A stretch of DNA of 50,357 bases. It comes from Pseudomonadota bacterium (GTDB lineage: Bacteria > Pseudomonadota > Gammaproteobacteria > Steroidobacterales > Steroidobacteraceae). Under the pieces are notes generated by a model. That model had not been told where the DNA came from, made no database searches, and saw only the letters and a list, made by a program, of their open reading frames with translations. The stretch lies in NCBI GenBank assembly GCA_025360865.1, contig JANYBG010000127.1, forward strand, positions 1-50,357. Direction: 5' to 3'. The position numbers and the translations under genes were made by a program. Shown here piece by piece: positions 8,908 through 32,940 of the stretch (within the stretch, counting starts at the first letter, position 1; every line of letters begins with the position of its first letter).

Positions 8908-10511
8908 AGCGCATCGAATCGGCCGTGCGTGGCAACTCGGCGGAATTCCGCCGGCGCTACGCGCACAACAAGGCACTCGCGGCGCAGCTGCGCGCGCGCC
9001 AGGAGGCCGCACGCCACGACCGCCCGGCGCGCGATCTCGAGCGGCTGTCCAAGCAGGGGAAACTCCTGCCGCGGCAGCGCCTCGAGCGCCTGCTCGACCC
9101 CGGGACGCCGTTCCTCGAGCTCTCCAGCCTGGCGGCGAACCTGGCCTACGCGGGCGAGTCACCCGGGGCCAGTTGCCTTACCGGCATCGGCGTCGTCTCC
9201 GGCCGCGAAGTGATGATCCATGCCGATGACCCGACGGTGAAGGGCGGAGCGTGGTACCCGCTGACCATCAAGAAGATCGTGCGGGCACTTGATATCGCGG
9301 TGGAAAACCAGCTGCCCGTGGTGCACCTGTGCGATTCGGCGGGCGGCCAGCTGCAGCTGCAGTCGGCCCTGTTCCCGGATCGCTACATGGCCGGACGCAT
9401 ATTCCGCAATCAATGCATGCTCAGCAAGATGGGCGTCAAGCAGCTCGCCCTGGTGTTCGGGCATTGCACCGCGGGGGGCGCCTACGTGCCGGCGCTGAGC
9501 GACTACAACGTGATCGTGCGTGGCACCGGGGCGGTATTCCTCGGCGGCCCGCCGCTGGTGAAGGCGGCCACCGGCGAGCTGGTCTCCGCGGACGACCTGG
9601 GCGGCGCCGACCTGCACACGCGCGTCAGTGGCACCTGTGACTACCCGGCCGCGGATGAGGACCAGGCGATTTCCATCGGGCGCGAGATCGTCGCCCAGTG
9701 GGAACGGAAGCCCAAGTGGCGCGGGCCCGACCAGGCGATCGAGGCGCCGCTGCTGGACGCTGATGAGCTCTACGGAATCATCCCTGATGACATCAAGCAG
9801 ACCTTCGAGATGCGCGAGGTGATCGGGCGCGTGGTTGATGGCAGTCGCTTCCACGAGTACAAGCCCGACTACGGCACGACACTCGTGTGTGGCTTCGCGC
9901 ACCTGTGGGGCTATCGCCTCGGCATACTCGGCAACAATGGCATCCTCTTCAATGACAGCGCCATCAAGGGTGCCCACTTCATTGAGCTGTGCAACCAGAA
10001 CAACACACCGATGCTCTTCCTGCAGAACATCACCGGCTACATGGTCGGACGCGAGTACGAGAAGGCTGGCATCACCAAGGACGGGGCCAAGATGATCATG
10101 GCGCAGAGCTGCAGCCACGTGCCCAAGCTCACGGTCATGTGTCACGGCTCCTTCGGGGCCGGCAACTACGGGATGTGCGGTCGCGCCTTCGACGGCCGCT
10201 TCCTGTTCGGATGGCCGAACCACCAGATCGCGGTCATGGGTGGGGAACAGGCGGCCGGCACGCTCGCGGAGGTGAAGCTGCGCCAGATGGAGCGTGCGGG
10301 CATGGCCGCCGATCCCCAGGTGATGCGGCAGCTGCGCGAGGAAACGCTTAAGGCCTACGAGGAACAGACCTCCGCCTATTACTCCACCTCGGAGCTGTGG
10401 GACGACGGGATCCTTGACCCGGTGGATACCCGCAACGCCCTGGGGGTCGCGCTGTCAGTGGCGATGAACGTACCCCAGGGTGTCCCGGGAAACGGCGTAT
10501 TCCGGTTCTGA
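8904..10511 (+). CDS. Acyl-CoA carboxylase carboxyltransferase (beta) subunit, MCC/GCC type
   Basis: This 535-residue carboxyltransferase transfers CO2 from biotin to an acyl-CoA. The order of conserved segments is that of methylcrotonyl-CoA and geranyl-CoA carboxylase beta chains: a tunnel of GKLLPRQRLERLLDPG, then the oxyanion region CDSAGGQLQLQ, HCTAGGAYVPALSD and GPPLVKAATGE. In the second half come FLQNITGYMVG, HGSFGAGNYGMCGRA and MGGEQAAGTLAEVK. The order AtuA-TetR-BC-BCCP-CT suggests an AtuC/AtuF-like enzyme acting on a 3-methyl-branched enoyl-CoA. MCC and GCC cannot be told apart here by eye. It converges on a crotonase gene 5 bp away. Confidence 0.95.
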   Translation: MKRIESAVRGNSAEFRRRYAHNKALAAQLRARQEAARHDRPARDLERLSKQGKLLPRQRLERLLDPGTPFLELSSLAANLAYAGESPGASCLTGIGVVSGREVMIHADDPTVKGGAWYPLTIKKIVRALDIAVENQLPVVHLCDSAGGQLQLQSALFPDRYMAGRIFRNQCMLSKMGVKQLALVFGHCTAGGAYVPALSDYNVIVRGTGAVFLGGPPLVKAATGELVSADDLGGADLHTRVSGTCDYPAADEDQAISIGREIVAQWERKPKWRGPDQAIEAPLLDADELYGIIPDDIKQTFEMREVIGRVVDGSRFHEYKPDYGTTLVCGFAHLWGYRLGILGNNGILFNDSAIKGAHFIELCNQNNTPMLFLQNITGYMVGREYEKAGITKDGAKMIMAQSCSHVPKLTVMCHGSFGAGNYGMCGRAFDGRFLFGWPNHQIAVMGGEQAAGTLAEVKLRQMERAGMAADPQVMRQLREETLKAYEEQTSAYYSTSELWDDGILDPVDTRNALGVALSVAMNVPQGVPGNGVFRF

Positions 10512-14008: not shown

Positions 14009-15397
14009 TCAGTGGCGGATGCCCTTGACCCGAACCTTGAACTTCATGCTCGGCCCCGGGGTCGGGAGCACCTTGGTCTCCAGCATGTAATCGGGTGATT
14101 CGAGCTCCAGGTCGAGCTTGTAGAACAGGCGCGCCATCGAAAGCGCCATCTGCACCTCGGCCAGCGTCTTGCCCAGGCAGGTGTGCGTGCCGCGGCCGTA
14201 TGGGGAGTACGCGCCGGGCTTCAGGTGCTCGGCGCGCGGCTTGGCGTAACGGTCGATGTCGAACGTGTCGGGGTTGGGGTAGAACTCCTCCATGTAGTGC
14301 GGCACGGCCGTCGCCACGTAGAGAAGCTCGTTCTCGCGGACCTGATAACCAAGGAAGCCGAAGTCCCGGGTCGCGGTGCGCATCTGGGCGACCGCGATCG
14401 TGTAGACGCGCATCGCCTCCATGATGGCGCCGTCGATATTGGGCAGCTCGTTGCGAACGTTCGCCTCGTCGATGCTGCCCTTGGCGAACAGCGCATCCGC
14501 GTCGGCCTGCACGCGCCTGAGCACGTCGGGATTCTTCAGCACCGCGTAGATGAAGCCGGACACGGTGTTGGCCACGGTGTCGAGCCCTGCCACGAACGGC
14601 CCGGTCAGGCTCAGGATCAGGTCGCTGCGCGGGATGAGGTCCGGATCGCGCGCGTGCGCCTCCATGACATCGTCCACCAGGTTGCGGCGCGCCGGATCCC
14701 GGTCGGCCTTGCCGGCCTCGTACTGGGCGATCATGCGCTGGCCAAGTTCCGAGACGCGGCTCTTGGCGTACTTGTAGCGCGGGTCCTTAAGCATGAACTT
14801 CGGGCGCTGGCGCGTGACCAGGATGTTCAGGATGTAGAGGATGGTGGTGCGGATATCCGCCACGTACTCGCGCGGGGAGGTTCCCGTGAGCATCGCGCCG
14901 AGCTGCTCGGTGACAATGTACTGCATGTTCTGCACGACCGGGACCATCTGTCCAACCGGCCAGTCGCGCGCGATCACCTTGTCCGTGATCTCGACGAGCT
15001 CGTCGTAGCGACCCTTGAGCGACTCCTTGGAGTAGCCGTGCTTCATGACGGCGCGCAGCTTCTGGTGCGTCTCGCCGTCCTCGCCGGTCAGGGTGCGCGA
15101 GGCGCCCCACTCATCGACCAGCCCCTGCCAGAATTCCTTCGAGCGCAGCGAGTCGCGGCCCTCGCGGGTGCCCATGAAGTTGGCGGCTTCGGCGCCAGCG
15201 AGCACGGTGTAGGTGTTGCTCATCACCTTGAGCTTGAAGACCGGCCCGTGCTTGCGGTAACACTCGTAGAAGAACCGGCCCGGGTCCTTCGCCATGTCCA
15301 GGGCATTGCCGAGGAAGGGCAGGCCCTTGACCAGGGGTGGCTCCTTCAGAGGCGCCTTGCACGGTTCTTTGATTGCTTCGGATGCGGCCGTGGCCAT
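14009..15397 (-). CDS. Cytochrome P450, soluble
   Basis: This 462-residue P450 has no N-terminal membrane anchor. The I-helix oxygen-activation motif is AGLDT (270-274). The K-helix ExxR is E327-R330. The heme-binding loop reads PYGRGTHTCLG with C407 as the axial thiolate; the usual first Phe is Tyr (YSPYGRG). A partner ferredoxin is not encoded next to it. It is transcribed divergently from a TetR gene across a 150 bp region containing a candidate operator. In a steroid catabolic island a terminal side-chain hydroxylation is the natural guess, but the sequence does not identify the substrate or the CYP family. Confidence 0.94.
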   Translation of the reverse strand: MATAASEAIKEPCKAPLKEPPLVKGLPFLGNALDMAKDPGRFFYECYRKHGPVFKLKVMSNTYTVLAGAEAANFMGTREGRDSLRSKEFWQGLVDEWGASRTLTGEDGETHQKLRAVMKHGYSKESLKGRYDELVEITDKVIARDWPVGQMVPVVQNMQYIVTEQLGAMLTGTSPREYVADIRTTILYILNILVTRQRPKFMLKDPRYKYAKSRVSELGQRMIAQYEAGKADRDPARRNLVDDVMEAHARDPDLIPRSDLILSLTGPFVAGLDTVANTVSGFIYAVLKNPDVLRRVQADADALFAKGSIDEANVRNELPNIDGAIMEAMRVYTIAVAQMRTATRDFGFLGYQVRENELLYVATAVPHYMEEFYPNPDTFDIDRYAKPRAEHLKPGAYSPYGRGTHTCLGKTLAEVQMALSMARLFYKLDLELESPDYMLETKVLPTPGPSMKFKVRVKGIRH

Positions 15398-16193: not shown

Positions 16194-17153
16194 GTGAGCG
16201 CGCGGGCCGCGGCGGAGCGCCGCATCGAAGTCGGCGAGCTGATCCCCGGTGAGGGGCCCCTTGGGATCGCCGCGAGCGTTTACCTTCCGCCTCAGCCCCC
16301 GCCCGCCCCGACGGCGCTGTATTGCCTGCCTGGCGGGGCGATGTCCCGCGGTTACTTTGATCTCCAGGCGGAAGGGGACTTCAGTTTCGCCGCGGCGCTC
16401 GCCGCGCGCGGCTACATCGTCGTCACGCTCGATCCGCTGGGGGTCGGGGGCAGTTCCCGGCCCCGGGACGGCCACGAACTCACGCCACAGATCCTGGCGC
16501 GCGCCAACGCGATCGCGGTGGCCGCCATACAAGACCAGCTGGCCTCGGGGGAACTTGCGGGCCAGCCACTCGGGCCAGTGCGCGCGATTGGCGTCGGACA
16601 CTCGATGGGCGCCATGCTCACCGGTGTCCAGCAGGCGCACCATGCCAGCTACCAAGCCCTCATGCTCTTCGGGTTCGGCACCAAGGGTCTCGTGGCCGCC
16701 TTGTCCGATGAGGAAAAGCGCCACGCCGGGGATCCCGCGGGCACACTCGAGAACCTGGTGCGCCTGGCGCGCCTGCGCAGCGTGGATCCCTATCCTGAGG
16801 TTCCCCGCACGCAGCAGGGCCGGGAATTGTTCGCCGGGGCGACCGCCGACCGGCGCGGCGTCGAGGCGCTGAACCGCGTGCGCGCGGGACTGCTGCTGAC
16901 AGCGGGCCTGTATTCCATGATCCCCGGCAGCGTCGTGCCTGACTGCGCGCGGATCAAGGTGCCGTTGCTTCTGGCGCTGGGCGACCGCGATATGGCAGGT
17001 CCCCCGCACGAGGTGCCGGCAAGCTACCCGGGCAGCGGCGACATCACATTGCTGGTGCTTCCCTCCACCGGCCATGCGCATTTCCTGTTCGATTCGCGTC
17101 ATCAGCTCTTTGAGCGCGCAGCCAGCTGGTGCGAGGCGACGCGGTCGGGGTAG
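16194..17153 (+). CDS. Alpha/beta-hydrolase fold protein
   Basis: This 319-residue hydrolase has a nucleophile elbow GVGHSMGAM (around residue 140). A candidate acid lies in LALGDRDMAG, and a histidine in STGHAHFLF completes a plausible triad. The GTG at 16194 is preceded by GGAG at good spacing; an earlier in-frame codon at 16140 would overlap the TetR gene. It is followed 4 bp later by the CoA-transferase gene, so the two are likely co-transcribed. Esterase, lactonase and thioesterase activities all fit. The substrate cannot be read from sequence. Confidence 0.85.
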   Translation: MSARAAAERRIEVGELIPGEGPLGIAASVYLPPQPPPAPTALYCLPGGAMSRGYFDLQAEGDFSFAAALAARGYIVVTLDPLGVGGSSRPRDGHELTPQILARANAIAVAAIQDQLASGELAGQPLGPVRAIGVGHSMGAMLTGVQQAHHASYQALMLFGFGTKGLVAALSDEEKRHAGDPAGTLENLVRLARLRSVDPYPEVPRTQQGRELFAGATADRRGVEALNRVRAGLLLTAGLYSMIPGSVVPDCARIKVPLLLALGDRDMAGPPHEVPASYPGSGDITLLVLPSTGHAHFLFDSRHQLFERAASWCEATRSG

Positions 17154-17157
17154 GGCA

Positions 17158-18534
17158 ATGGCGCGTCACGAGTTGCCCTATGCGACCGACTACGCCAACC
17201 GGCTGCTCGCGGATCTCGGCTCGTCGCTATCCCTCGCGGAGGAACCACAACTCCATCCGGCTTTGCGTTGGGCGCGCGGCGGCGCCATGGCCCTCACCGG
17301 ATACCCCGGGGAGCCTGGCCGGATGTGTCCGGTCCCACTGGCTTCGTACGCCGACGGCATCATCGCCGCGCTGCGGGCCTTGAGACCGGGGACCGCTCTT
17401 GAGGGGGTCGAGGGGGCGTGCCTTCTCGGGGAGCGCGCGGCACTGGCCGGTTTTCGGCGCGCGGGGGCCGTGTCCCCTGGTGGTGGTTGCCGCCTGCTCA
17501 AGGCCCGCGATGGCTGGCTTGCGCTGAACCTCCCGCGCGCGAGCGACTGGGAGTTGCTGCCGGCGTGGCTGGAGGAAGGGGAGCTTGTCGGGTGGGAAGC
17601 CATTGCCAGGGCGCTCACGGCGCACGGCGTAGGGGAGAGCGTCGAGCGCGGCAGGCTTCTTGGCCTTGCGATCGCCGCGATGCGACCGGCGCGATCGAAA
17701 ACGCCTGCGAAGTGGTGTGATGAAGTTCACCGGGTCGCCGCCGCGGGATGCGCGGATCCGGGAGTGGCGCCCCTGGTGGTCGACCTATCCTCACTGTGGG
17801 CCGGCCCCCTGTGTACCCAGCTGCTGCGAACGATGGGCGCCCGCGTCATCAAAGTCGAAAGCGCCACGCGGCCGGATGGCATGCGCCGGGCCGGCGATGG
17901 GTTCCACGACCTGCTCAACGCGGGCAAGGCGAGCGTCGCGCTGGATCTGGCGCGGCCGGAAGGTCGGGCGCGGCTGCGCGCGCTCCTCCTGCGCGCTGAC
18001 ATCGTGGTGGAGGCGTCGCGGCCACGGGCGCTGCGCCAGCTGGGCATCGACGCACAGCAGATCCTCGAGGAAAACCCGGCCATGACCTGGATCAGCATCA
18101 CCGGGCACGGGCGTGAGGCTCCGCGCGGCGACTGGGTCGCCTTCGGGGACGATGGCGCGGTCGCCGGGGGCCTATCGCAAGTGCTGTGGGATTCACACGG
18201 ACGCGCCATGTTCTGCGCCGACGCGGTCGCTGATCCACTCGCGGGACTGCACGCGGCCCTGGCCGCGTGGACCAGTCACGCGCAGGGCGGTGGCCGGCTG
18301 CTGTCACTCGCCCTGGCGGAGGTCGTCGCCCACGCGATTGAGTTCGCGGATCTGCGTGACGCGCCGGCGGCGCGGGCGCGCGCTGAGGACTGGGCGGCGC
18401 ACATCTCGGATGCCGATGTCGGACCACCCCGGGCGCGCGCGCCCGCGGGGACCGCGCGTAACCTTGGCGCCGACACCGCCGAAGTGCTCACCGAGACGGC
18501 GCGGTGGACGCGACCACGCGCGACCTCGCGCTAG
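17158..18534 (+). CDS. CaiB/BaiF family III CoA-transferase, two-part architecture
   Basis: This 458-residue protein belongs to the CaiB/BaiF family (acyl-CoA:carboxylate CoA-transfer, or alpha-methylacyl-CoA racemisation in some members). The conserved N-terminal family core, VVDLSSLWAGPLCTQLLRTMGA and VIKVES, does not start until about residue 205. It is preceded by a half containing GGGCRLLKARDGWLALNL, which normally follows that core. This order occurs in a known subfamily and suggests a rearranged domain arrangement. ATG 17158 follows AGGG. The gene lies upstream of a converging flavoprotein gene. BaiF in bile acid 7-dehydroxylation clusters belongs to the same family, which fits the BaiE-like gene nearby. 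Confidence 0.87.
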   Translation: MARHELPYATDYANRLLADLGSSLSLAEEPQLHPALRWARGGAMALTGYPGEPGRMCPVPLASYADGIIAALRALRPGTALEGVEGACLLGERAALAGFRRAGAVSPGGGCRLLKARDGWLALNLPRASDWELLPAWLEEGELVGWEAIARALTAHGVGESVERGRLLGLAIAAMRPARSKTPAKWCDEVHRVAAAGCADPGVAPLVVDLSSLWAGPLCTQLLRTMGARVIKVESATRPDGMRRAGDGFHDLLNAGKASVALDLARPEGRARLRALLLRADIVVEASRPRALRQLGIDAQQILEENPAMTWISITGHGREAPRGDWVAFGDDGAVAGGLSQVLWDSHGRAMFCADAVADPLAGLHAALAAWTSHAQGGGRLLSLALAEVVAHAIEFADLRDAPAARARAEDWAAHISDADVGPPRARAPAGTARNLGADTAEVLTETARWTRPRATSR

Positions 18535-18564
18535 GGTTGCGCACATACTGCCGCCGCCCGCCAC

Positions 18565-18594
18565 GCCGCGCGGCTTAGCTGGCCGCGGTGCCAG
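18565..18594. terminator. Possible bidirectional terminator between convergent genes
   Basis: The 69 bp gap between converging genes contains a GCCGCGCGGC palindrome (18565-18574) and a stem CTGGC-N6-GCCAG (18579-18594). No T-tract follows, so this is only a weak candidate. Confidence 0.3.
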
Positions 18595-18603
18595 GACGGG
18601 GAG

Positions 18604-20088
18604 TCAGCGTGCCGTGGCCGCCGCGCGCATGCCGGCCTGACGCCCGAAAAAAGAGGCATCCGCCAGCGACAATCCCGAGCTATACCCCTCGCCCCAGCGC
18701 GGCAGGCCGCAGGTGGTCCGCCCGGCGGCGAAGAGGCCACCGATGACCTTGCGATCGGAGTCGACGACTTCCCCGGTTGGCAGGCTGTCCAGGCCGCCGA
18801 GCGTGAAGGAGGCGTAGAAGCAGTGGTCGATGCGGCAATCGATGGCGATGAAAGGCGGCTCGTTCAGCGGCTTGAGCCACTTGCGGGACTTATGGAACAG
18901 CGGATCGGTGCCCTCGGCGGCGTAGTGGTTGTACAGGCGCACGGTGGCGGCCAGCGAGTCGGTTGGCAGCTGTAGCTCGCGCTCGACCTCCTCCCAGGTT
19001 TCCCCGGCGGCGCCGATCTCCATCTTGGCGAGCGTCTGCATCTCGCCCACGGCGTAGGTGGCATGGTCCTGCAGCAGCCAGATGCGGTCGCCGCCCTGGC
19101 GCATGATGTAGTGGGAAACCCGTCCGTGGTAGCAGTCCTCATTGATGAAGCGCTGCCCGCGGCCGTTGACGAATATCCCCTTCACCATCGATCCGGGCGG
19201 GTACCAGGGAATGGTCGCGAATCCCTCGCCCATGTTGATCATCGCCCCGCCGACACTCGCGCCGAGCAGCATTCCCGATCCATCATCGACCGTTCCCAGC
19301 GGGAACCGCGAGCGCAACAGGAACGGGGCGTGCTGCTTGACCATCTCACGATTCATCACGAAACCGCCGGCGCACAGGACCACCGCGCGACGCGCGCGGG
19401 CGAAACGCTCCTGGCCGTCGATGCGCAGCACGAGGCCATGCGCCTCGCGGGCGCCGTCGGCGATGAGGGCCTGAGCGCGCGCGTTGTAGAGCACCTGTAC
19501 GCCGGCCTCCGAGACGCGCCGCGTGAGGACGTCCATGACGTAGCGGCCGCCGCCCATGCCGAGAAACTTCGGGCAGTGGCCGCGCGGGGCCGGTTTAGCC
19601 TGTGCGGAAAACGGCCACGCTTCCTCGCTGCCCGACCAGATCAGGCAATCGTCGGTCGACGGCTCGATGCAGCGCTCGGCGATGAAGGAATTCTTGTACT
19701 CGACGCCCTGCGCCCGGAGCCATTCGAAGTGGCCGAGGGAGCCATCCGCGTACAGGCGCGCCTTGGCCTCGTCCGCGTTCGGGCCACCGACCATGAGCAG
19801 GTAGCGGTACAGGTCCTCGGTGGCGTCCTCGAACCCGGCCGATCGCTGGATCGGTGTCCCGCCGCCGCCGCCCATGTAGATCTCGCCCCCGGAGAGGGCC
19901 GAGGTGCCACCGCTACCCGCGGCGCTTTCAACCAGCAGTACCCGGGCGCCGGCGCGCGCGGCCTCGATCGCGGTCGATGCCCCCGCGGCGCCGAAGCCCA
20001 CGACGATGACGTCGGCCTCGTGGTCCCAGCGGGGAACCTGGGAAAGGACTGCCGGGCGGCTTTGCGAATAGCGGAGCGGTTCGGTCAC
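18604..20088 (-). CDS. FAD-dependent dehydrogenase/reductase of the KstD/fumarate reductase family
   Basis: This 494-residue flavoprotein has the FAD dinucleotide motif VVGFGAAGAS at 30-38 and, at the C-terminus, GLFAAGRTTCGLPRWGEGYSSGLSLADASFFGR, the FAD-contacting end of the family. Members include 3-ketosteroid dehydrogenases, 3-oxosteroid reductases (BaiJ/BaiP-type) and fumarate reductases. The Tyr-containing C-terminal GEGYSSG segment differs from the YPGxG of canonical KstD1, so delta-1-dehydrogenation is not assured. The start is GTG 20088; GTG 20121 would add 11 residues. It diverges from the BaiE-like dehydratase gene. A steroid ring redox role is inferred. Confidence 0.85.
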   Translation of the reverse strand: MTEPLRYSQSRPAVLSQVPRWDHEADVIVVGFGAAGASTAIEAARAGARVLLVESAAGSGGTSALSGGEIYMGGGGGTPIQRSAGFEDATEDLYRYLLMVGGPNADEAKARLYADGSLGHFEWLRAQGVEYKNSFIAERCIEPSTDDCLIWSGSEEAWPFSAQAKPAPRGHCPKFLGMGGGRYVMDVLTRRVSEAGVQVLYNARAQALIADGAREAHGLVLRIDGQERFARARRAVVLCAGGFVMNREMVKQHAPFLLRSRFPLGTVDDGSGMLLGASVGGAMINMGEGFATIPWYPPGSMVKGIFVNGRGQRFINEDCYHGRVSHYIMRQGGDRIWLLQDHATYAVGEMQTLAKMEIGAAGETWEEVERELQLPTDSLAATVRLYNHYAAEGTDPLFHKSRKWLKPLNEPPFIAIDCRIDHCFYASFTLGGLDSLPTGEVVDSDRKVIGGLFAAGRTTCGLPRWGEGYSSGLSLADASFFGRQAGMRAAATAR

Positions 20089-20112
20089 GGCGGGTACTCT
20101 GTTTCGGCGATG

Positions 20113-20128
20113 TATCCACACAAGGATA
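20113..20128. promoter_or_regulatory. Inverted repeat TATCC-N6-GGATA in divergent promoter
   Basis: A perfect 5-bp-arm repeat lies between the flavoprotein and BaiE-like genes. It overlaps the upstream alternative GTG of the flavoprotein, supporting the shorter start at 20088. It is a candidate operator. No second copy was noticed in the window. Confidence 0.35.
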
Positions 20129-20204
20129 AGGTAGATTCGGCGGCGGATGCAGCCTGTAGCATGGGCGCAGTTCGCGCCCGGCCGGTCAGCAGAGGGGGTT
20201 TGCC

Positions 20205-20699
20205 ATGTCTCTACGCCTGGAAGATATCGAGCTCATCAAGCGCCTGAAGTACAAGTACTGGCGCTGCATCGACATGGGTGACGTCGCGAGCCTGCGAGAC
20301 TCGCTCACCGAGGACATGCGGGTCGACTACAAGGGCGGCACCTACCGCTGGCAGATGACCGGTCGTGACCAGATCCTCGCGGCGATCGCCGCATCCTTCA
20401 ACTCGAACGGCGTGGGTTGCCACACCGGGCACCACCCCGAGATAGACGTGCTCACGGACACCACGGCCACCGGCCTGTGGTATCTGACGGACATCTTCAT
20501 CAACCTCAAGGAGAAGGTGAGGACCACTGGCAGCGCGCTCTACAAGGACAAGTACGTGAAGATCGCAGGCCTCTGGCGCATCGCCGAGTCGACCTATGAA
20601 CGCGTGTACGAGCAGGTGGAGAGCTTCACCGAGGCTCCGAACCTCACCGCGCACTGGCTGGCGCGCGTGCCGCCCCCCGCCGCCGCGGGAGCCAAGTAA
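20205..20699 (+). CDS. BaiE-like SnoaL/NTF2-fold dehydratase
   Basis: This 164-residue protein is a single SnoaL-like domain. It aligns well with bile acid 7alpha-dehydratase BaiE: KYWRCID, GHHPEI, TATGLWYLTD, ALYKDKYVKIAGLWRI and YERVYE match BaiE segments in order. The active-site set reported for BaiE (Tyr30, Asp35, His83, Asp106, Arg146) appears here as Y18, D23, H73, D96 and R133. This supports elimination of water from a hydroxysteroid-CoA or hydroxysteroid ketone. The alignment was made from memory of BaiE and is not a computed one. It is co-translated with an SDR (1 bp overlap) and diverges from a KstD-family flavoprotein. Confidence 0.82.
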   Translation: MSLRLEDIELIKRLKYKYWRCIDMGDVASLRDSLTEDMRVDYKGGTYRWQMTGRDQILAAIAASFNSNGVGCHTGHHPEIDVLTDTTATGLWYLTDIFINLKEKVRTTGSALYKDKYVKIAGLWRIAESTYERVYEQVESFTEAPNLTAHWLARVPPPAAAGAK

Positions 20700-21457
20700 T
20701 GGCCAACCTCTCCGGCAAGATAGCGCTCGTGACGGGCGCGGGTCAGGGCGTCGGGCAGGGCATCGCGCTCGCGCTCGCCGGCGCCGGCGCCACGGTCGCG
20801 GTCACCGGTCGCACCGAGTCCAAGCTCGCCGATACGCTCAAGATCCTGAAGGATCGCGGTGGCAAGGGCCTGGCGATCACTTGCGACGTGTTCAAGGCCG
20901 AGGACATCACCCGCACGGTGGCGCGTACCGTCGAGGCGCTGGGTGGAATCGACATACTCGTCAACAATGCCTACGACGGCGCGTTCGGGCCGCTGCTATC
21001 ACTGGACGACGACGCCTTCATGCGCGGCATCAACGCAGGACCCTTGGCCTCGTTCCGCTTCATGCGCGCCTGCCACCCGCACCTGAAGGCGCGTGGCGGC
21101 GGCAACATCGTCAACCTCATCACCTCCGCGGCCGTGCGCTGGGATTCGTCCAACTACGGCGCCTACGCCGTCGCCAAGCAGGGGGTACGCGCGCTGACGC
21201 GCGCCGCGGCCAGCGAGTGGGGGCCGGATAACATCCGCGTCAACAACCTCGCCCCGCTCGCCGCATCACCGGCGCTCGCCAACTGGATCAAGCATGACCC
21301 TGAGTCGAAGACCTTCTTCCAGACCGTGGCCCTGAAGCGGGTGGGGGACTGCGAGGTCGACATCGGCCGCGCCGTGGTCGCCCTGGTGGGCCCGGAGATG
21401 GGCTACCTGACGGGGGCGACGCTGCCTCTGGACGGCGGCCAGGCGTACTTCGGCTGA
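20699..21457 (+). CDS. SDR-family oxidoreductase
   Basis: This 252-residue classical SDR has the NAD(P) loop TGAGQGVGQG (residues 12-21), NNAY in the NNAG position, and the catalytic Ser in NLITSAA followed by YAVAK (Tyr-x3-Lys). The C-terminal LTGATLPLDGGQ is typical. The ATG overlaps the last base of the BaiE-like stop (TAATG), so translation is coupled. A hydroxysteroid dehydrogenase role supplying or consuming the keto group needed for dehydration fits, but substrate and position are not readable. Confidence 0.9.
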   Translation: MANLSGKIALVTGAGQGVGQGIALALAGAGATVAVTGRTESKLADTLKILKDRGGKGLAITCDVFKAEDITRTVARTVEALGGIDILVNNAYDGAFGPLLSLDDDAFMRGINAGPLASFRFMRACHPHLKARGGGNIVNLITSAAVRWDSSNYGAYAVAKQGVRALTRAAASEWGPDNIRVNNLAPLAASPALANWIKHDPESKTFFQTVALKRVGDCEVDIGRAVVALVGPEMGYLTGATLPLDGGQAYFG

Positions 21458-21465
21458 AGGCGCGT

Positions 21466-21488
21466 CCCGCGCTGTGCTACAGCGCGGG
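21466..21488. terminator. Bidirectional terminator-like hairpin
   Basis: A perfect 8-bp stem CCCGCGCT/AGCGCGGG with a 7-nt loop lies between the converging SDR and EthD genes. It overlaps the last codons of the leftward gene. GC-rich and symmetric, it could serve both strands. No T-tract is evident. Confidence 0.5.
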
Positions 21489-22199
21489 GTCCTGCGCGCG
21501 ATACAGCCGGTACTCGCTCGTGGCGATGACGTCGATGCGGTCGAAATCGATGAACTTGGCGCAGCTGTCCATCATCAGCCGCTGGTGCCGCTGGTGACGC
21601 GGCTCATCGCCGACCGCGTCGTAGAACGACGCCGAGTCACGCATCGCCTCGGGCGGGAAGCATTCCTCGACGATGCCCCTGAAGGGCGGCGCCCCTTCCG
21701 TGAGCGGCATGACCACGACGTTGTGCGCGTAGAGGAAGTTGGCCTGCGTGGCGACACCGACGGGGGTGTGTTCCTCGAACCAGACCTTGCGCCAGGCCTC
21801 ATACGTCAGGCGCGGCGGTATCTGCAGGAAGGTCACCTGGCTGAATCCATAGGTACGCTCCCCGGGGCTCCCCTGATGGCGCACGTTGGGCAGGATCGTG
21901 GACTCGGCGACCTCGTAACCGGCGATGCGCGCGAAGCTCTTCGCCAGCAGCAGTTCGACCGGTTGCCGGCGGTACGCGCTCGTCAGCCAGAACGACACCA
22001 GCCCATCGGGCACAGGCTTGGTGTTATGCAGGCTGAAGTTGACGAGCGTCCCACTCAGGTCGGCGAAGTCGGCGACGTTGAGCTGCACGCGCGCGGCGCC
22101 CAGTTCGCTGAGTCGGGGACCGATCTCGCTCAGGAAGCGCTGGCGCAGGGCGACCGCGTCCTGCGTGCCGCGCCAGAATACATACACCAGTTTTTCCAT
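21477..22199 (-). CDS. EthD domain-containing protein
   Basis: This 240-residue protein has two ferredoxin-like halves. The second contains TYEAWRKVWFEEHTPVG and NFLYAHNVVVMPLTEGAPPF, resembling EthD/dimeric alpha-beta barrel proteins. The first, beginning MEKLVYVFWRGTQD, resembles a repeat of the same fold. EthD proteins accompany P450 and other catabolic systems, with no agreed biochemical role. It diverges from a VOC-family gene over 107 bp. Assignment rests on the pattern W-x5-H-xP and length only. Confidence 0.7.
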   Translation of the reverse strand: MEKLVYVFWRGTQDAVALRQRFLSEIGPRLSELGAARVQLNVADFADLSGTLVNFSLHNTKPVPDGLVSFWLTSAYRRQPVELLLAKSFARIAGYEVAESTILPNVRHQGSPGERTYGFSQVTFLQIPPRLTYEAWRKVWFEEHTPVGVATQANFLYAHNVVVMPLTEGAPPFRGIVEECFPPEAMRDSASFYDAVGDEPRHQRHQRLMMDSCAKFIDFDRIDVIATSEYRLYRAQDPAL

Positions 22200-22306: not shown

Positions 22307-22837
22307 ATGACGTCACAGTCCTTCGGTCCGATCCGGCAGGTCGCATGGGTGGTGCGCGATCTCGAGGAGAGCGTGCGCAACTGGATGCGGGTGAGTGGCG
22401 TGGGGCCCTGGACCTGCTTTCGCAACGTCGCCATGGCCGGCAAGCTGGCCGGTAAGGGCGCGAAAGTGCGCATGCACGTGGCGCTGGGGTACCAGGGCGA
22501 CATGGAGATCGAGCTCATCGAGGACCTGAACGCCGGGCCCTCGCCCTACCGCGATCCATCCGGTGCGCCGCTGGTTGGCATGCACCATGTCGGCTGGTTC
22601 AGCGATGATGTCGGGGCGGACATCGAGCGCGGTGTCGAGCGCGGCATGAAGGTCAGGTTCGAGGCCGCCAACGAGGTGACGCGGGTCGCATACCTTGAGG
22701 ATCCGCGCGAGTCAAAGCTGCTGTTCGAGTTCATTGAGATGAACGCGGCGATGCGGGCGGGATTCGCGGCGCGGCTGGAAGCGGCGCGCTCGTGGCAGGG
22801 GGAGAATCCCCTGCGGATCATCGATCTTGGCGGTTAA
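22307..22837 (+). CDS. VOC-superfamily (glyoxalase/epimerase-like) protein
   Basis: This 176-residue protein has two beta-alpha-beta-beta-beta modules typical of vicinal oxygen chelate proteins. The first begins IRQVAWVVRDLEESVRNW and the second GMHHVGWFSDDVGADIE. Candidate metal ligands are the acid in IELIED, the His of GMHHVGW and the Glu of LFEFIEM. Family members include methylmalonyl-CoA epimerases, glyoxalases and extradiol dioxygenases. At this length, with only 1-2 apparent modules, it is unlikely to be the missing ring-cleavage HsaC enzyme, which is about 290-300 residues. The SDR gene 16 bp downstream is probably co-transcribed. Confidence 0.78.
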   Translation: MTSQSFGPIRQVAWVVRDLEESVRNWMRVSGVGPWTCFRNVAMAGKLAGKGAKVRMHVALGYQGDMEIELIEDLNAGPSPYRDPSGAPLVGMHHVGWFSDDVGADIERGVERGMKVRFEAANEVTRVAYLEDPRESKLLFEFIEMNAAMRAGFAARLEAARSWQGENPLRIIDLGG

Positions 22838-22853
22838 GCGGCGAGGAACATCC

Positions 22854-23609
22854 ATGGGCAGCTGGCAGAACATCACGTACAACTATCGTGGGGCGCAGGT
22901 CCTGGTGACCGGCGGTACCTCCGGAATCGGCGCGGGGATCGCCGCGGCCTACCGCGAGGCGGGCGCGGAGGTGGTCATCACCGGCACGCGCTCCTCGGCC
23001 AAGGACTACGCGGAGGACCTCGGCGGCTTCCGCTACCTGCAGCTGAGCCTCACCGACAAGGCGCGCATCGCCGCGGTCGCGGCCGCGTTGCCCAGCCTCG
23101 ACATCCTGGTCAACAACGCCGGCGCGAACTTCATGACGCAGAACGAGTACGACCCGGAGATCTTCGAGAAGGGAGTGCAGGTGAACCTCACCAGCGCCTA
23201 CCGCATGTCGCACGCCCTGAAACCGAAGCTCGCGCTGAGCAAGCTTCCAGGTGGCGCCAGTGTCATCGGCATCGCCTCGCTCACCTCGTACTTCGGCGTC
23301 GAGGTCGTGCCGGCCTATGGCGCGGCCAAGGCCGGGCTCGTGCAGCTGATGAAGACCCTGAGCATCGCCTGGGCGAAGGACAATATCCGTGTGAACGCGG
23401 TCGCCGCGGGGATCACGGAAAGCCGCATGACCGCGCAGATGCTCAGCATGCCGGAAATGATGGCGCCGGTGCTGGCGCGCACGCCGCTGGGCCGTCCCGG
23501 CAAGCCCGCCGACATCGCCGCCGCGGTCCTCTTCCTGACGAGCGCCGGCGCGAGCTATATCACCGGACAGACGCTGATGGTGGACGGCGGCTACTCGATC
23601 GTGGGCTGA
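22854..23609 (+). CDS. SDR-family oxidoreductase
   Basis: This 251-residue classical SDR has the cofactor loop TGGTSGIGAG, the NNAG motif, catalytic Ser in IGIASLTSYFG and YGAAK. The C-terminus TGQTLMVDGGYSIVG is standard. The start at ATG 22854 is set by GAGGA 6 bp upstream; an in-frame codon at 22827 would overlap the VOC gene. Four bases separate its stop from the sulfotransferase start. The substrate is unknown; a hydroxysteroid is plausible by context. Confidence 0.9.
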   Translation: MGSWQNITYNYRGAQVLVTGGTSGIGAGIAAAYREAGAEVVITGTRSSAKDYAEDLGGFRYLQLSLTDKARIAAVAAALPSLDILVNNAGANFMTQNEYDPEIFEKGVQVNLTSAYRMSHALKPKLALSKLPGGASVIGIASLTSYFGVEVVPAYGAAKAGLVQLMKTLSIAWAKDNIRVNAVAAGITESRMTAQMLSMPEMMAPVLARTPLGRPGKPADIAAAVLFLTSAGASYITGQTLMVDGGYSIVG

Positions 23610-23613
23610 CGAC

Positions 23614-24876
23614 ATGGCAGATGACATCCGCATCGATGATCTCGCGCAGCCGCGCCTAGACGCGGCGCAGCGCGCCGCCCTGGCCTGGGGCGAATCGCAG
23701 CCCGTCGAACTCACCGTGGCGGCGGTGCTCGCGGCGGCGCGGGCGCGCACCGGGCTGACCGACTTTGGCGCGGACGACTTCCGCGCGCGCCTCGCGCTGT
23801 TGTGCGAGGAATGGGACGCGGACAAGCCGCTCACCGCGCTGCATCGCGGCGTGCTCTTCGGTTACCTGTCGCGCTACGCGTGTAACCGCTTGCTGATCCA
23901 CGACACGCTCAAGCGCCACCCGCGGATCCTCGCCGAGCGCATCGACCGGCCGGTGATCGTCACCGGCTTGCCACGTTCCGGCACCACGCACCTGGTGAAC
24001 CTGCTGGCCGCGGACTCGCGCTTTCATTCGCTGCCGCTGTGGCAGTCCTACGAGCCGGTGCCGCTGCCGGGCGAGGCGTTGACGGCCGACGGCGCGGATC
24101 CGCGCTACGCGCGTTGCGCGGCGGCATGGGAGGGCATGAAACAGGTAACCCCGCTGCTGGCTTCCATGCACCCGATGGAGCCGGACCACATCCACGAGGA
24201 ACTCGAGCTCATGGGGCCGGACTTCGCCTCATACAACTTCGAGTGGCTGAGCAAGTCCCCGCGCTGGGGCGCGCACTACGCGGCGACCGACCAGACCCCG
24301 CACTACGAGTACCTGAAGCGCGCGCTGCAGCTGCTGCAGTGGCAGCGCCGCGAGAGTGGCAAGCGCTGGGTGCTCAAGTGTCCGCAGCATCTTGAGCAGC
24401 TGCCGGCGCTCATGAAGGTCTTCCCGGATGCGATCGTCGTGTTCACGCACCGGGACCCGGTGGCGGTGATCCAGTCGACCGTGACCATGCAGGCCTACAC
24501 GCAACGCATCCAGCGGCCAAGGATCGAGATCGACTGGCTGCGCGAGTACTGGGTGGCGCGCATCGAGCGACTGCTGCGCGCCTGCGTGCGCGATCGCGCG
24601 CTCGCGGATCCCGCGCACAGCGTGGACTGCCCGTTTCACCTGCTCATGCGCGACCCGTGGAGCCTACTCGAGCAGGTTTACGCCAAGGCGCAGCTGCCCG
24701 TGTCGGCGCAGGCGCGGGCGGAGCTGAACCATTACCTGGCGACGCATCCGCGCGGCAAGGCGGGGCAGGTGATCTACGACCTGCGGCGTGATTTCGCCAT
24801 CGACCCGGCGCTGCTGCGCGAGCGGTTCGGCTTCTACTTCGAGCGCTTCGAGGTGCGCGCGGAAAAAGCCGGCTGA
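23614..24876 (+). CDS. Sulfotransferase-family protein (PAPS-dependent type)
   Basis: This 420-residue protein has the 5'-phosphosulfate-binding loop GLPRSGTTHL at 118-127 and a 3'-phosphate region FTHRDPVAVIQST, the two hallmarks of cytosolic-type sulfotransferases. The N-terminal 100 residues are an extra helical segment. The family moves sulfate from PAPS to a hydroxyl. Relatives are frequent in steroid and aromatic catabolic clusters of Pseudomonadota, where their role is not established. No sulfatase or PAPS-synthesis gene was seen nearby. It converges on the LuxR gene. Confidence 0.88.
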   Translation: MADDIRIDDLAQPRLDAAQRAALAWGESQPVELTVAAVLAAARARTGLTDFGADDFRARLALLCEEWDADKPLTALHRGVLFGYLSRYACNRLLIHDTLKRHPRILAERIDRPVIVTGLPRSGTTHLVNLLAADSRFHSLPLWQSYEPVPLPGEALTADGADPRYARCAAAWEGMKQVTPLLASMHPMEPDHIHEELELMGPDFASYNFEWLSKSPRWGAHYAATDQTPHYEYLKRALQLLQWQRRESGKRWVLKCPQHLEQLPALMKVFPDAIVVFTHRDPVAVIQSTVTMQAYTQRIQRPRIEIDWLREYWVARIERLLRACVRDRALADPAHSVDCPFHLLMRDPWSLLEQVYAKAQLPVSAQARAELNHYLATHPRGKAGQVIYDLRRDFAIDPALLRERFGFYFERFEVRAEKAG

Positions 24877-24877
24877 C

Positions 24878-24892
24878 GGCGGCTCAGCCGCC
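24878..24892. terminator. Possible terminator hairpin between convergent genes
   Basis: GGCGG-CTCAG-CCGCC forms a 5-bp stem at the junction of the converging sulfotransferase and LuxR genes. It overlaps the LuxR stop codon. The stem is short and lacks a T-tract. Confidence 0.3.
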
Positions 24893-26077
24893 CAGCTGGG
24901 CGACGCTCCGCAGGATGGCGCGCACCAGGCGCGCCTGCCGATCGATCCCCGTCTTGGAAAACGTCGAGCGTAGGTGCGCCCGCGCGGTATTGAGCGTGAT
25001 ACCAAGATCACTCGCGGCCTCCTGCAGGCTGCGGCCGTTGGCCAGGCACAGCGCGAGCTGCGCCTCCTTGTGCGTGAGCTCGAAGAGCTTGCGGATGGTC
25101 TCCACCGGCGGCGGGGTCTGCGAGTTCTCCTCCACGCTGATGAACACCGCGACCGCGGGCGAGACGTTGAACTCGTCAGCCTCGACGGAACCGGCGGCCG
25201 GCCGGATCATCATGCCGTAGTGACCGGCACCTGAGGGGCGGCGGGCGCGCAGCACCTCGACGATGCCGGGCTTGGCGGCGCGCCCGACGGCGATGGCGCG
25301 GGCGATCGAGTCGCGCAGGCGCTGGGCATCGGCCGGGTGCGTGAGCACGAGCGTGTCGTTGGCGAGGCTGATGCCGTCCTGGCGCTGGAGGATGTCACGC
25401 GCGAGCGCGTTGGTATGGATCACGTGCCCCGAGGCATCCAGGATCACGGTCGCAAGCGTGAGGTGATCCATCGCATCCGCGTAGATGGCGCGCTCCATCT
25501 TGGTGGCGTCCAAGGCGGCGTGCGTGCGCATCGCGATGTCGACATGGGGGACGAGGGATTCGACGAAGCGCTTCTCGGCCGTGGTGAAGTTGCCGGCGTT
25601 ACGCCCCCGGGTGACGCGCAGGCGCGCGTACAGGCGATCGCCGTCGCGCAGGTCGACGCCGAGGTTGTAGATCGCGTCCCAGGGGATCAGGTACTCGGTG
25701 AAGAAGCGGCTGCGCTCCAGCTGTTCCACCGGCACGAACTCGTGCATCGTGATGACCTGCTTCTCGGGCAGGTTCACGAACGGGTCCAGCGGGAAATAGC
25801 GGTTGTATTGGCCCAGCACCTCATCGCTGCCGCCCCATGAGTACAGGAGACCGGCCTCCGCCACATGCGGCGAGCGCAGGATGAGCGTCGCGGCTCCATT
25901 GAGGCGCTGTCCCAGGCCCTCGAGGAACTCGCGCCAGCGCCTCGGGTTGATGGCCCCTTCATGCACCAGCAGCGTCAGCCGCTCGCGCAAATCCGCCGAT
26001 GCGGGTGACCGCGCGGCTCCGTGGCTGGCGGAAGCCGCGGCACGAGCGGGGGCGCGGGTGGCGGCGGGAGGACTCAT
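24884..26077 (-). CDS. LuxR-family regulator, TeiR-like candidate
   Basis: This 397-residue regulator has a C-terminal LuxR-type helix-turn-helix (about 330-390: LTHKEAQLALCLANGRSLQEAASDLGITLNTARAHLRSTFSKTG). A sensor region precedes it with PAS-like features (TLATVILDASGHVIHTNALARDIL near 210-235). No receiver domain or transmembrane segment is evident. TeiR, the LuxR-type activator of testosterone degradation in Comamonas, has similar size and architecture. The setting next to hydroxysteroid dehydrogenase-like and hsa-like genes makes a steroid-responsive activator plausible. Orthology is not shown. It diverges from the 26212 SDR gene across a region with a 16-bp imperfect palindrome. Confidence 0.85.
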   Translation of the reverse strand: MSPPAATRAPARAAASASHGAARSPASADLRERLTLLVHEGAINPRRWREFLEGLGQRLNGAATLILRSPHVAEAGLLYSWGGSDEVLGQYNRYFPLDPFVNLPEKQVITMHEFVPVEQLERSRFFTEYLIPWDAIYNLGVDLRDGDRLYARLRVTRGRNAGNFTTAEKRFVESLVPHVDIAMRTHAALDATKMERAIYADAMDHLTLATVILDASGHVIHTNALARDILQRQDGISLANDTLVLTHPADAQRLRDSIARAIAVGRAAKPGIVEVLRARRPSGAGHYGMMIRPAAGSVEADEFNVSPAVAVFISVEENSQTPPPVETIRKLFELTHKEAQLALCLANGRSLQEAASDLGITLNTARAHLRSTFSKTGIDRQARLVRAILRSVAQLGG

Positions 26078-26211: not shown

Positions 26212-26979
26212 ATGACAGGTCTGGCCGGCAAGGTTGCCCTCGTTACGGGCGCGGCGCGCGGACTGGGCGCCAGCATCAGCCGCCAGCTGCACTCCGAGGG
26301 TGCGCAGGTGGTGCTCGCGGACATGCGCGACGATGAGGGGAACGCGCTGGCGAAAGCCCTCGGTGAGCGCGCCCATTATGTTCACCTGGACGTATCCAGC
26401 GAGTCGGAGTGGAACGCGGCGCTGGGCGCGGCGCGCAAGCGTGTCGGTCCGGTCACGATCCTGGTCAACAACGCGGGCATCTATCGAACGCGCGCGACCA
26501 TCGAGCAGAGCGTGGACGAGTACCTGCAGATCATCCGCACCAACCAGCTCGGCACCTTCCTGGGCATGCGCACCTGCTTCGCGCAGATGCGCGACGCCGG
26601 CGGCGGGTCCATCGTGAACATCGCCTCCACGGCCGGCATCGAAGGGGTGCCCCTGGCACTGGCCTATACCGCGAGCAAGCACGCCGTGGTCGGTATGACC
26701 AAGGCGGCGGCGCTCGAGTTCGGGCCGTCCAAGGTGCGCGTCAATGTCGTGTGTCCGGGGGCGATGCTGACCCCGCTGCTGGTCGAGTCGCTGAACGTGC
26801 CGCTAAGCGCGCTCAGCGCGGCCCCGTTCGCCAATTCCCCGATGGGCCGCATGGGCGACCCGTCCGAGATCGCCCCGACCGTTGTGTTCCTGGCCAGCGA
26901 CGCTTCCTCCTACACGACTGGCAGCGAGTTCGTGGTCGACGGCGGCCTCACCGCCGGCGTCAAGATGCCGCCGCCGTAG
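26212..26979 (+). CDS. SDR, 3alpha/20beta-hydroxysteroid dehydrogenase-like
   Basis: This 255-residue classical SDR has TGAARGLGAS, NNAG, and catalytic Ser/Tyr/Lys in NIASTAG and YTASK. Along its length it closely resembles Streptomyces 3alpha,20beta-hydroxysteroid dehydrogenase: GARGLGA, YVHLDV, GGGSIVNI, NSPMGRMG and SSYTTGSEFVVDGG all correspond. This points to reversible oxidation of a steroid hydroxyl. The comparison is from memory. The ATG is 6 bp after GAGGAG, a strong ribosome site. It is the first gene after the LuxR-regulated divergent promoter and is followed by the DUF35/thiolase pair. Confidence 0.88.
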   Translation: MTGLAGKVALVTGAARGLGASISRQLHSEGAQVVLADMRDDEGNALAKALGERAHYVHLDVSSESEWNAALGAARKRVGPVTILVNNAGIYRTRATIEQSVDEYLQIIRTNQLGTFLGMRTCFAQMRDAGGGSIVNIASTAGIEGVPLALAYTASKHAVVGMTKAAALEFGPSKVRVNVVCPGAMLTPLLVESLNVPLSALSAAPFANSPMGRMGDPSEIAPTVVFLASDASSYTTGSEFVVDGGLTAGVKMPPP

Positions 26980-27001
26980 CCGCCGCTTTTTCGGGGGACG
27001 C

Positions 27002-27442
27002 ATGACCGCCAAATCACCCGTGGCCGCCATCGATGGCTGGTACACCCTGGATGACCCGCCGCACCTGATCGGCTCGCGCTGCCTGACGTGCGGGACGTAC
27101 TTCTTCCCGCGACAGGCGTCGTTCTGCCGCAATCCGGACTGCGAGGGCGAGACGTTCGAGGACGTGAAGTTGAGCCGCACCGGCAAGATCTGGTCGTACA
27201 CGAACGCCTGCTACCAGCCGCCACCGCCCTTTGTCGCCCCCGTCCCATACCTGCCATTCGCCATCGCCGCCGTGGAACTCGCCGCCGAGCGCATGATCGT
27301 GCTGGGTCAGATGAGTGCCGGCATCGAGGTTGGTGACCTGCGGGTCGGCATGGAGGTGGAGCTGGTTCTGGAGCGGCTGTACGCGGCGGATGGGCAGGAG
27401 AAGCTCATCTGGAAGTGGCAGCCGATGGGGCGCGCCCCGTGA
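27002..27442 (+). CDS. DUF35 OB-fold/zinc-ribbon protein, thiolase partner
   Basis: This 146-residue protein has an N-terminal rubredoxin-like zinc ribbon with C27, C30, C42 and C47 (CLTC...CRNPDC), followed by an OB-fold. This is the ChsH2-C/DUF35 architecture. DUF35 proteins bind Ltp2-type thiolases and form the retro-aldolase that cleaves steroid side chains, or act as thiolase/HMG-CoA synthase scaffolds. The next gene encodes such a thiolase and its GTG overlaps this stop by 4 bp (GTGA), supporting a complex. Start ATG 27002 follows GGGGGA. Confidence 0.9.
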   Translation: MTAKSPVAAIDGWYTLDDPPHLIGSRCLTCGTYFFPRQASFCRNPDCEGETFEDVKLSRTGKIWSYTNACYQPPPPFVAPVPYLPFAIAAVELAAERMIVLGQMSAGIEVGDLRVGMEVELVLERLYAADGQEKLIWKWQPMGRAP

Positions 27443-31495: not shown

Positions 31496-31523
31496 GGTGT
31501 CGCCGTGCCGTCGGTGGTGAGGT

Positions 31524-32726: not shown

Positions 32727-32782
32727 GGGGACCTCCGACACAAAAAGATGGGAGAATCAGATGGGATTCCCGACGAAGACGA

Positions 32783-32854: not shown

Positions 32855-32940
32855 TGTAAAATCGCGCAGAGCAGGTGATTGCGGTGACGCAGGGCGAATC
32901 CGCTGCGTATTCTGCCTCCCCAGACCCCCAAGGAGCGACC

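Follow-up and report, generated by a model that had tools for sequence, protein, structure and literature searches.

A candidate SnoaL and EthD dehydratase pair for 7-hydroxysteroids in a steroid gene cluster of a Steroidobacteraceae genome

Two types of dehydratase acting on steroid 7-hydroxyls have been reported from Sphingobium Chol11. Hsh2 acts on delta4-3-keto substrates (PMC8399759), and Hsh3 is an EthD-domain 7beta-hydroxysteroid dehydratase unrelated to Hsh2 and BaiE (PMC12175502); both have so far been characterised in few strains. Here we describe a stretch of 50,357 nucleotides (hereafter the window; contig JANYBG010000127.1 of assembly GCA_025360865.1, from an uncultured, apparently oxygen-using member of the family Steroidobacteraceae) in which a SnoaL gene (20205-20699) is followed by a gene for a short-chain dehydrogenase/reductase (SDR1) and by an EthD gene (21477-22199).

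The locus is probably an aerobic, delta4,6-type module for the removal of 7-hydroxyls from both 7-epimers, which would feed the 9,10-seco pathway, and it is the SnoaL and EthD pair that probably carries out the removal. Support for the module comes from sequence homology and conserved residues, from the predicted fold, and from gene order as well as phylogeny; from these we infer its reaction, ring position, stereochemistry and substrate. An initial annotation of the window had proposed 7-hydroxysteroid dehydration feeding the 9,10-seco pathway, comparable to Hsh2, and this is the reading that best fits the evidence. The four genes it named (CoA-transferase, flavoprotein, SnoaL and SDR) were found by gene calling and Pfam where it had placed them, and the co-translation it suggested for the last two agrees with the overlap of the SDR1 ATG with the SnoaL stop codon, as TAATG. 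Its label of a bai-like gene set had to be given up, as BaiE is phylogenetically apart, the flavoprotein is a relative of 3-ketosteroid-delta4-(5alpha)-dehydrogenase (delta4-(5alpha)-KSTD), the CoA-transferase and SDR are unspecific to bai, and no long BaiCD-type match was found in the window at E <= 1e-20. It also missed the EthD gene directly downstream of SnoaL-SDR1, which is predicted to encode an Hsh3-type 7beta-hydroxysteroid dehydratase, and an Hsh1-Sor1-like pair of genes at 38.4-40.2 kb.

Two predicted dehydratases side by side

The SnoaL protein is very probably a steroid dehydratase. When it was searched against 177,635 PDB sequences with phmmer, three BaiE sequences were the top matches (E 1e-22 to 3e-20), and the next match had an E value of 0.067. 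For structural comparison, a model was built from an alignment of 40 sequences, comprising the window protein and 39 of 80 loci, which are the best 80 of 106 confirmed in a scan of genome contigs seeded with SnoaL alone (loci are numbered with the prefix L). The predicted fold had a predicted local distance difference test score (pLDDT) of 94.6, and BaiE structures occupied Foldseek ranks 1-4 (E 9e-15 to 2e-13, template modelling (TM) score 0.76-0.81), followed at rank 5 by a putative scytalone dehydratase (E 3e-10).

The window protein has the five residues listed in the initial annotation (Y18, D23, H73, D96 and R133), and each aligns with an identical letter in all three BaiE sequences. All five are also found in 76 of 96 aligned SnoaL rows, including two paralogues from the same genome (L018 and L007), both close Chol11 homologues and the distant rows L048_15050, L106 and L107, while the other 20 rows keep Y, D and H and vary in the last two. 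As 76 rows, two same-genome paralogues among them, share these residues, they leave the function unfixed on their own, and we rejected them as proof of 7alpha activity.

The window genome contains 19 SnoaL_4 matches, three of which match the SnoaL protein at E <= 1e-15, itself included. In Chol11, the gene taken as Hsh2 is 46% identical to the SnoaL protein (146 bits) and a second homologue (C6:91089) is 47% identical (155 bits). With Chol11 Hsh2 as the query, the SnoaL protein was the best match in the window genome, at the same 46% and 146 bits.

The SnoaL alignment and tree included 96 of 133 rows, setting aside 35 rows from 19 redundant Burkholderiaceae loci, the duplicate L005 and the damaged L027; a more careful tree had 94 rows, without window_39478 and L061_8071. 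In the 94-row tree, the window protein forms a clade (support 100/92) with four near relatives, a Rhizorhabdus protein and the second Chol11 homologue, which one Hyphomonadaceae row joins at 99/88. Its sister is a SAR86 and gammaproteobacterial clade (97/83). Hsh2 sits in a separate 29-row clade (99/98) that does not include the window protein, and clostridial BaiE joins Chloroflexi SnoaL proteins (L071, L072, L073 and L095; 89/92). In approximately unbiased (AU) tests of groups that were named after the tree was seen, the grouping of the window clade with BaiE was rejected (p 0.0026), the second Chol11 gene with the Hsh2 clade gave p 0.044, and the window clade with the Hsh2 clade was not rejected (p 0.057). 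Based on the tree and these tests, the SnoaL protein is BaiE/Hsh2-like, and neither a BaiE nor a simple Hsh2 orthologue. Its clade, which lies beside Hsh2, holds a second, uncharacterised Chol11 gene.

For the EthD protein, the only match in the Chol11 genome was the protein taken as Hsh3 (39%, E 1e-46), and at the thresholds used the Chol11 protein in turn had the window gene as its sole match in the window genome. It also matches WP_011906908.1 of Novosphingobium aromaticivorans (37%, E 3e-35) and WP_234810817.1 of S. herbicidovorans (41%), both of which are listed as Hsh3 homologues in PMC12175502. All 27 of 27 family-invariant residues are present in the Chol11 protein, which was outside the 17-sequence alignment that defined them, although that alignment contained its close sphingomonad relatives. 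The predicted fold (pLDDT 88, from an alignment of 17 sequences) found weak matches in the PDB (best E 2e-5, TM about 0.5), and a profile search against the PDB gave nothing credible.

The Chol11 locus names used here were assigned from gene numbers. The long Old Yellow Enzymes of Chol11 at C6:16.6, 84.4 and 349.4 kb match Nov2c019, Nov2c085 and Nov2c314 by position (PMC8044976), and of the KshA matches at C9:42.6, 66.2 and 76.2 kb the first two fit Nov2c407 and Nov2c430 (PMC8399759). By this mapping, Nov2c400 (Hsh2) would be the SnoaL gene at C9:34.7 kb, and Nov2c681 (Hsh3) would be the only EthD match, which lies at C9:361.3 kb. The second SnoaL homologue (C6:91.1 kb) lies about 5 kb from Nov2c085.

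Flavoprotein, proposed route and alternatives

The flavoprotein gene is divergent from the SnoaL gene, with 83 bases between the called starts. Its best PDB match, over the full length, was the 3-ketosteroid-delta4-(5alpha)-dehydrogenase 4at0 (E 2e-108), which we take to be the enzyme of Rhodococcus jostii RHA1. The next matches were fumarate reductase (2e-36), urocanate reductase (4e-34) and the delta1-KstDs (2e-19 to 3e-16), and NCBIfam NF005510 was matched with 769 bits (cut-off 481). With 2e-108 to 4at0 against 2e-19 at best to a delta1 enzyme, a delta1-KstD assignment was rejected. Of the earlier description as KstD/BaiJ-P-type, the ketosteroid dehydrogenase kinship stands, but it is of the delta4-(5alpha)- rather than the delta1-type. 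According to PMC9645264, BaiJ and BaiP act as 5alpha-reductases on 3-oxo-delta4 bile acids, which is the opposite of a delta4-(5alpha)-dehydrogenation at this bond. As Hsh2 is reported on delta4-3-keto substrates, the flavoprotein would supply the substrate of the dehydratase; the literature searched, as far as its text was available, holds no account coupling a 3-ketosteroid-delta4-(5alpha)-dehydrogenase to a 7-dehydratase. When a Nov2c085-type protein, rather than Chol11 KSTD1, was used as the query, the best match in the window genome was 32% identical over 500 of 710 residues.

For the CoA-transferase, CoA_transf_3 covers residues 235-425 and profile positions 6-206 of 366, leaving the N-terminal half unmatched, so that the frame at 17074-18534 does not show a full family III domain. 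Its best PDB match is formyl-CoA transferase (3.5e-16, query from 17149). The proposed CaiB/BaiF CoA-transferase is thus upheld at the level of family III, but with half of the profile and no specific likeness to BaiF.

In the route that we propose, the flavin adenine dinucleotide (FAD) enzyme would desaturate a 3-ketosteroid at delta4. As the C6 hydrogen of the resulting delta4-3-ketone is acidic, the 7-hydroxyl could then be eliminated to give a delta4,6-dien-3-one, with the SnoaL protein acting on the 7alpha-epimer and the EthD protein on the 7beta-epimer. SDR1 and the proteins encoded around it may serve oxidation or reduction steps at hydroxyls or ketones on the rings of this substrate. 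The delta4,6 product could enter 9,10-seco cleavage through KshA and HsaC homologues elsewhere in the genome and the HsaA-, D-, E-, F- and G-type proteins and FadD3 of the window, and an Hsh1-Sor1-like pair could remove a 12-hydroxyl later. More tentatively, the cluster could be a dedicated entry route for flat 5alpha 7-hydroxy bile steroids, such as allo bile acids and 5alpha fish bile alcohols. The delta4-(5alpha)-ketosteroid dehydrogenase would then work together with a dehydratase for each 7-epimer, and the dehydratase group for these steroids would be the SnoaL clade beside Hsh2, with the uncharacterised second Chol11 gene in it.

Another explanation, which survives better than the other alternatives but which we consider rather unlikely, is that the SnoaL protein acts elsewhere, for instance by removing a 12beta- or 15-hydroxyl that is beta to a ring ketone, or acts on a later, ring-opened intermediate, and that EthD alone handles C7. 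SteC, a SnoaL/NTF2 protein about 28% identical to BaiE, is reported to remove a 12beta-hydroxyl (PMC13101464), so that the SnoaL fold leaves the ring position unfixed. The position outside the 29-row Hsh2 clade also fits such a role, and as there are 19 SnoaL_4 matches in the window genome, three of them close, SnoaL functions may have diversified. However, the window already has a separate candidate for C12, which is 66% identical to the Chol11 gene occupying the Hsh1 position and lacks two of the five residues, and the neighbouring FAD enzyme would yield the delta4-3-ketone needed for elimination at C7.

Several further points weigh against a 7-hydroxyl module. The best Chol11 match of the SnoaL protein is the uncharacterised second homologue and not Hsh2 (155 vs 146 bits), so the SnoaL protein and Hsh2 are not reciprocal best matches; that homologue lies near Nov2c085, which is reported as inactive on all bile salts tested (PMC8044976). 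The likeness to Hsh3 is only 37-39% identity, and in the EthD tree the joining of the window group to the sphingomonad Hsh3 group stays uncertain at a deep branch. Matches to HsaA, HsaC, HsaD and delta1-KstD are under their curated cut-offs, and no SteA/SteB orthologue was recognised, candidates being indistinguishable from other SDRs. Caenibius tardaugens is reported to have three Hsh2 homologues and a single homologue of Hsh3, and cholate induced none of them (PMC12882949).

It is improbable that the SnoaL and EthD pair acts on a non-steroidal ketone and stands in a steroid island by chance. SnoaL_4 and EthD are broad families, and the predicted fold has matches to LinA and scytalone dehydratase as well, but BaiE leads the sequence and fold searches by orders of magnitude, and steroid-type genes adjoin in the window and several other loci. 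A true bai-type pathway, in which 7-dehydroxylation proceeds on CoA esters and yields reduced secondary bile acids as it does in Clostridia, was rejected as very improbable: a BaiE-like protein does stand beside a family III CoA-transferase, an SDR and a flavoprotein, and the window has two AMP-binding ligases, but BaiE is phylogenetically apart, a search at E <= 1e-20 matched no long BaiCD-type Old Yellow Enzyme in the window, genes for oxygen-dependent ring cleavage lie next to the set, and the CoA-transferase matches half a profile and was not detected beside SnoaL in L026 and L027, the latter a 6.5-kb contig.

Recurrence of the gene set and its neighbours

Among the 80 loci, an Hsh3-like EthD gene occurs within about 10 kb of SnoaL in 34 (all 22 from Burkholderiaceae and 12 of the 58 remaining), with a gap of <1 kb in 28 of these and 2.3-8.3 kb in six. 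SDR1 (>=44%) was found on 37 loci and the FAD gene (>=45%) on 19, at thresholds set after the identities were seen; SnoaL, SDR1, EthD and the FAD gene occur together in seven (L023-L027, L094 and L099). The species are related and the counts therefore non-independent, and as only 50 of the 80 loci reach 20 kb, a gene may be missed at contig ends. The SnoaL/EthD neighbourhood recurs in Burkholderiaceae, Sphingobium, Rhizorhabdus, Hyphomonadaceae, gammaproteobacterial metagenome-assembled genomes (MAGs) and a Rhodococcus plasmid, namely pDND3A of Rhodococcus gordoniae (L014, 8350-12110), on which EthD, SDR, SnoaL and FAD oxidoreductase genes are contiguous and a CoA-transferase lies further on. 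The hsa-type genes, the FAD gene and SnoaL are close together in some sphingomonad loci (L041, L049, L053, L064 and L068). Within the window genus, the SnoaL gene was found in only 2 of 36 relatives searched (E <= 1e-15).

SAR86 members and Burkholderia were predicted to be steroid degraders in 2016 (PMC4810484), and baiE of Burkholderia cenocepacia is reported among virulence-facilitating genes, putatively in steroid degradation (PMC6829993). Hsh3 homologues are reported in sphingomonads and metagenomes, and Burkholderia is absent from the main text of that paper as far as it was available (PMC12175502); further context is given in PMC10382948 and PMC8540908. In the available text of the literature searched, Hsh2-type and Hsh3-type genes were nowhere described as neighbours.

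The overlapping SnoaL-SDR1 junction is also found in the four nearest relatives (L023-L026, with L024 and L025 read by eye). SDR1 homologues stand directly before EthD/Hsh3-type genes in sphingomonads (50-55%; L009, L011, L040, L051, L058 and L116), and in SAR86 and related loci those with 44-49% identity immediately precede SnoaL; a search of SDR1 against the PDB at E <= 1e-36 found nothing. Homologues of SDR2 (43%) and of the LuxR-type regulator (35%) lie near the second Chol11 SnoaL homologue. Two-gene SDR1-SnoaL units were observed in MAGs of SAR86 and other proteobacteria (L032-L036, L038, L039, L042, L046 and L047), and no hsa-type genes were found on these loci with window queries at E <= 1e-8. 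A sulfotransferase recurs near SDR1 and the EthD/Hsh3 gene in relatives of the window, in N. aromaticivorans pNL2, in Chol11 and in two Sphingobium loci, with homologues near SDR1-EthD in L009, L040, L051 and L116.

Gene prediction called 47 genes in the window. The Pfam scan covered 40 proteins, that is 39 of the 47 and 39478-40215 (outside it were 14-1030, 1027-2172, 2189-3073, 26882-27442, 42013-42552, 44316-44645, 47359-48489 and 48535-49701), and the NCBIfam scan covered 20. The oxygen-dependent hsa-type genes that had been noticed beside the set are confirmed in that HsaF-, HsaG-type and FadD3 proteins pass their cut-offs, with HsaA, HsaD and HsaE-type proteins below theirs (Table 1). 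On another contig of the genome (C165) there is a KshA match of 195 bits and an HsaC-like protein with 286 bits against a cut-off of 450, which Chol11 HsaC (281) does not reach either. Five delta1-KstD-type matches elsewhere in the genome are all under the model cut-off. Besides the stronger KshA on that contig, 47359-48489 has a KshA_C match of 105 bits. From its gene content, the genome looks like that of a degrader of hydroxylated, bile-type steroids.

With a Chol11 protein of the long BaiCD/BaiH-type Old Yellow Enzyme group as the query (E <= 1e-20), the only match in the window was the Sor1-like protein, a 459-aa frame; longer Old Yellow Enzyme frames of the genome lie on other contigs (C59 and C254). 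A cytochrome P450 at 14009-15397 has CYP51 structures as its nearest solved relatives (E 5e-29), and the left end of the window (4408-10511) holds a set of the acyclic-terpene utilisation type, with AtuA, TetR, biotin carboxylase, biotin carrier and carboxyl transferase.

Table 1. Features of the window discussed in the text, with coordinates, strand and basis of assignment
Feature	Coordinates	Strand	Basis
Family III CoA-transferase	17074-18534	+	CoA_transf_3 143 bits
FAD dehydrogenase, delta4-(5alpha)-KSTD-like	18604-20121	-	FAD_binding_2; PDB 4at0 E 2e-108
SnoaL/NTF2 protein, 164 aa, predicted BaiE/Hsh2-group dehydratase	20205-20699	+	SnoaL_4 86 bits
SDR1, 252 aa	20699-21457	+	adh_short_C2 152 bits
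EthD-domain protein, 240 aa, predicted Hsh3-type 7beta-hydroxysteroid dehydratase	21477-22199	-	EthD Pfam
SDR2	22827-23609	+	Pfam
Sulfotransferase	23614-24876	+	Sulfotransfer_3
LuxR-type regulator	24884-26077	-	GerE weak, 21 bits, cut-off 23.5
HsaF-type aldolase	29559-30587	-	passes generic NCBIfam cut-off
HsaG-type acetaldehyde dehydrogenase	30584-31669	-	passes generic NCBIfam cut-off
HsaA-like	31524-32741	-	NCBIfam 373 vs cut-off 450
HsaD-like	32875-33771	+	NCBIfam 175 vs cut-off 400
HsaE-type hydratase	33746-34564	+	NCBIfam 365 vs cut-off 409
FadD3, AMP-binding ligase	34541-36124	-	passes NCBIfam cut-off
SDR4	36162-36953	+	52% to SDR of Chol11 hsh2 locus
SDR5	36842-37828	+	64% to SDR of Chol11 hsh2 locus
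Old Yellow Enzyme, Sor1-like	38400-39758	-	Oxidored_FMN 214 bits, residues 102-426; true start probably near 39470
Second SnoaL, Hsh1-like, predicted 12beta-hydroxysteroid dehydratase	39478-40215	-	66% over 207 aa to Chol11 gene in Hsh1 position
AMP-binding ligase	44758-46464		Pfam

Comparison with described systems

The recurrence of the SnoaL/EthD neighbourhood points to a conserved, epimer-independent unit for 7-hydroxyl removal, and may provide a marker by which the delta4,6 route could be recognised in genomes. If two unrelated types of 7-dehydratase do work as neighbours, this route would look broader and more tightly organised. The finding also names an uncharacterised SnoaL clade with a member in Chol11, a culturable model strain.

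Compared with BaiE of gut Clostridia (PDB 4leh, 4l8o, 4l8p and 4n3v), the SnoaL protein shares the fold and the five residues and has BaiE as its nearest solved structure. However, only about one third of its residues are identical, it belongs to a separate clade (AU p 0.0026), and BaiE serves an anaerobic CoA-ester pathway. The flavoprotein resembles the delta4-(5alpha)-KSTD 4at0 over its full length, and its specificity is predicted from sequence.

Hsh2 (Nov2c400) is of the SnoaL/NTF2 family, with all five residues and 46% identity. In Chol11, hsh2 has a kshA gene at a distance of about 8 kb, and 9,10-seco genes are likewise near the window SnoaL gene, although the window gene falls into the neighbouring clade with another Chol11 gene.

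The likeness to Hsh3 (Nov2c681, PMC12175502) consists of the EthD domain, the reciprocal sole match and the 27 of 27 conserved residues, and the Chol11 locus also has an SDR1 homologue directly upstream and a sulfotransferase nearby. It differs in the level of identity already given and in that the window EthD gene is convergent with the SnoaL-SDR1 pair.

The second SnoaL gene and the Old Yellow Enzyme gene at 38.4-40.2 kb resemble Hsh1-Sor1 (PMC8399759) in gene order and in identity (66% and 49.6%), with the Chol11 pair assigned as Nov2c12 and Nov2c13 from gene numbers. In Chol11, hsh2 and hsh3, as assigned here, are about 327 kb apart on one contig, whereas the window has both types as neighbours.

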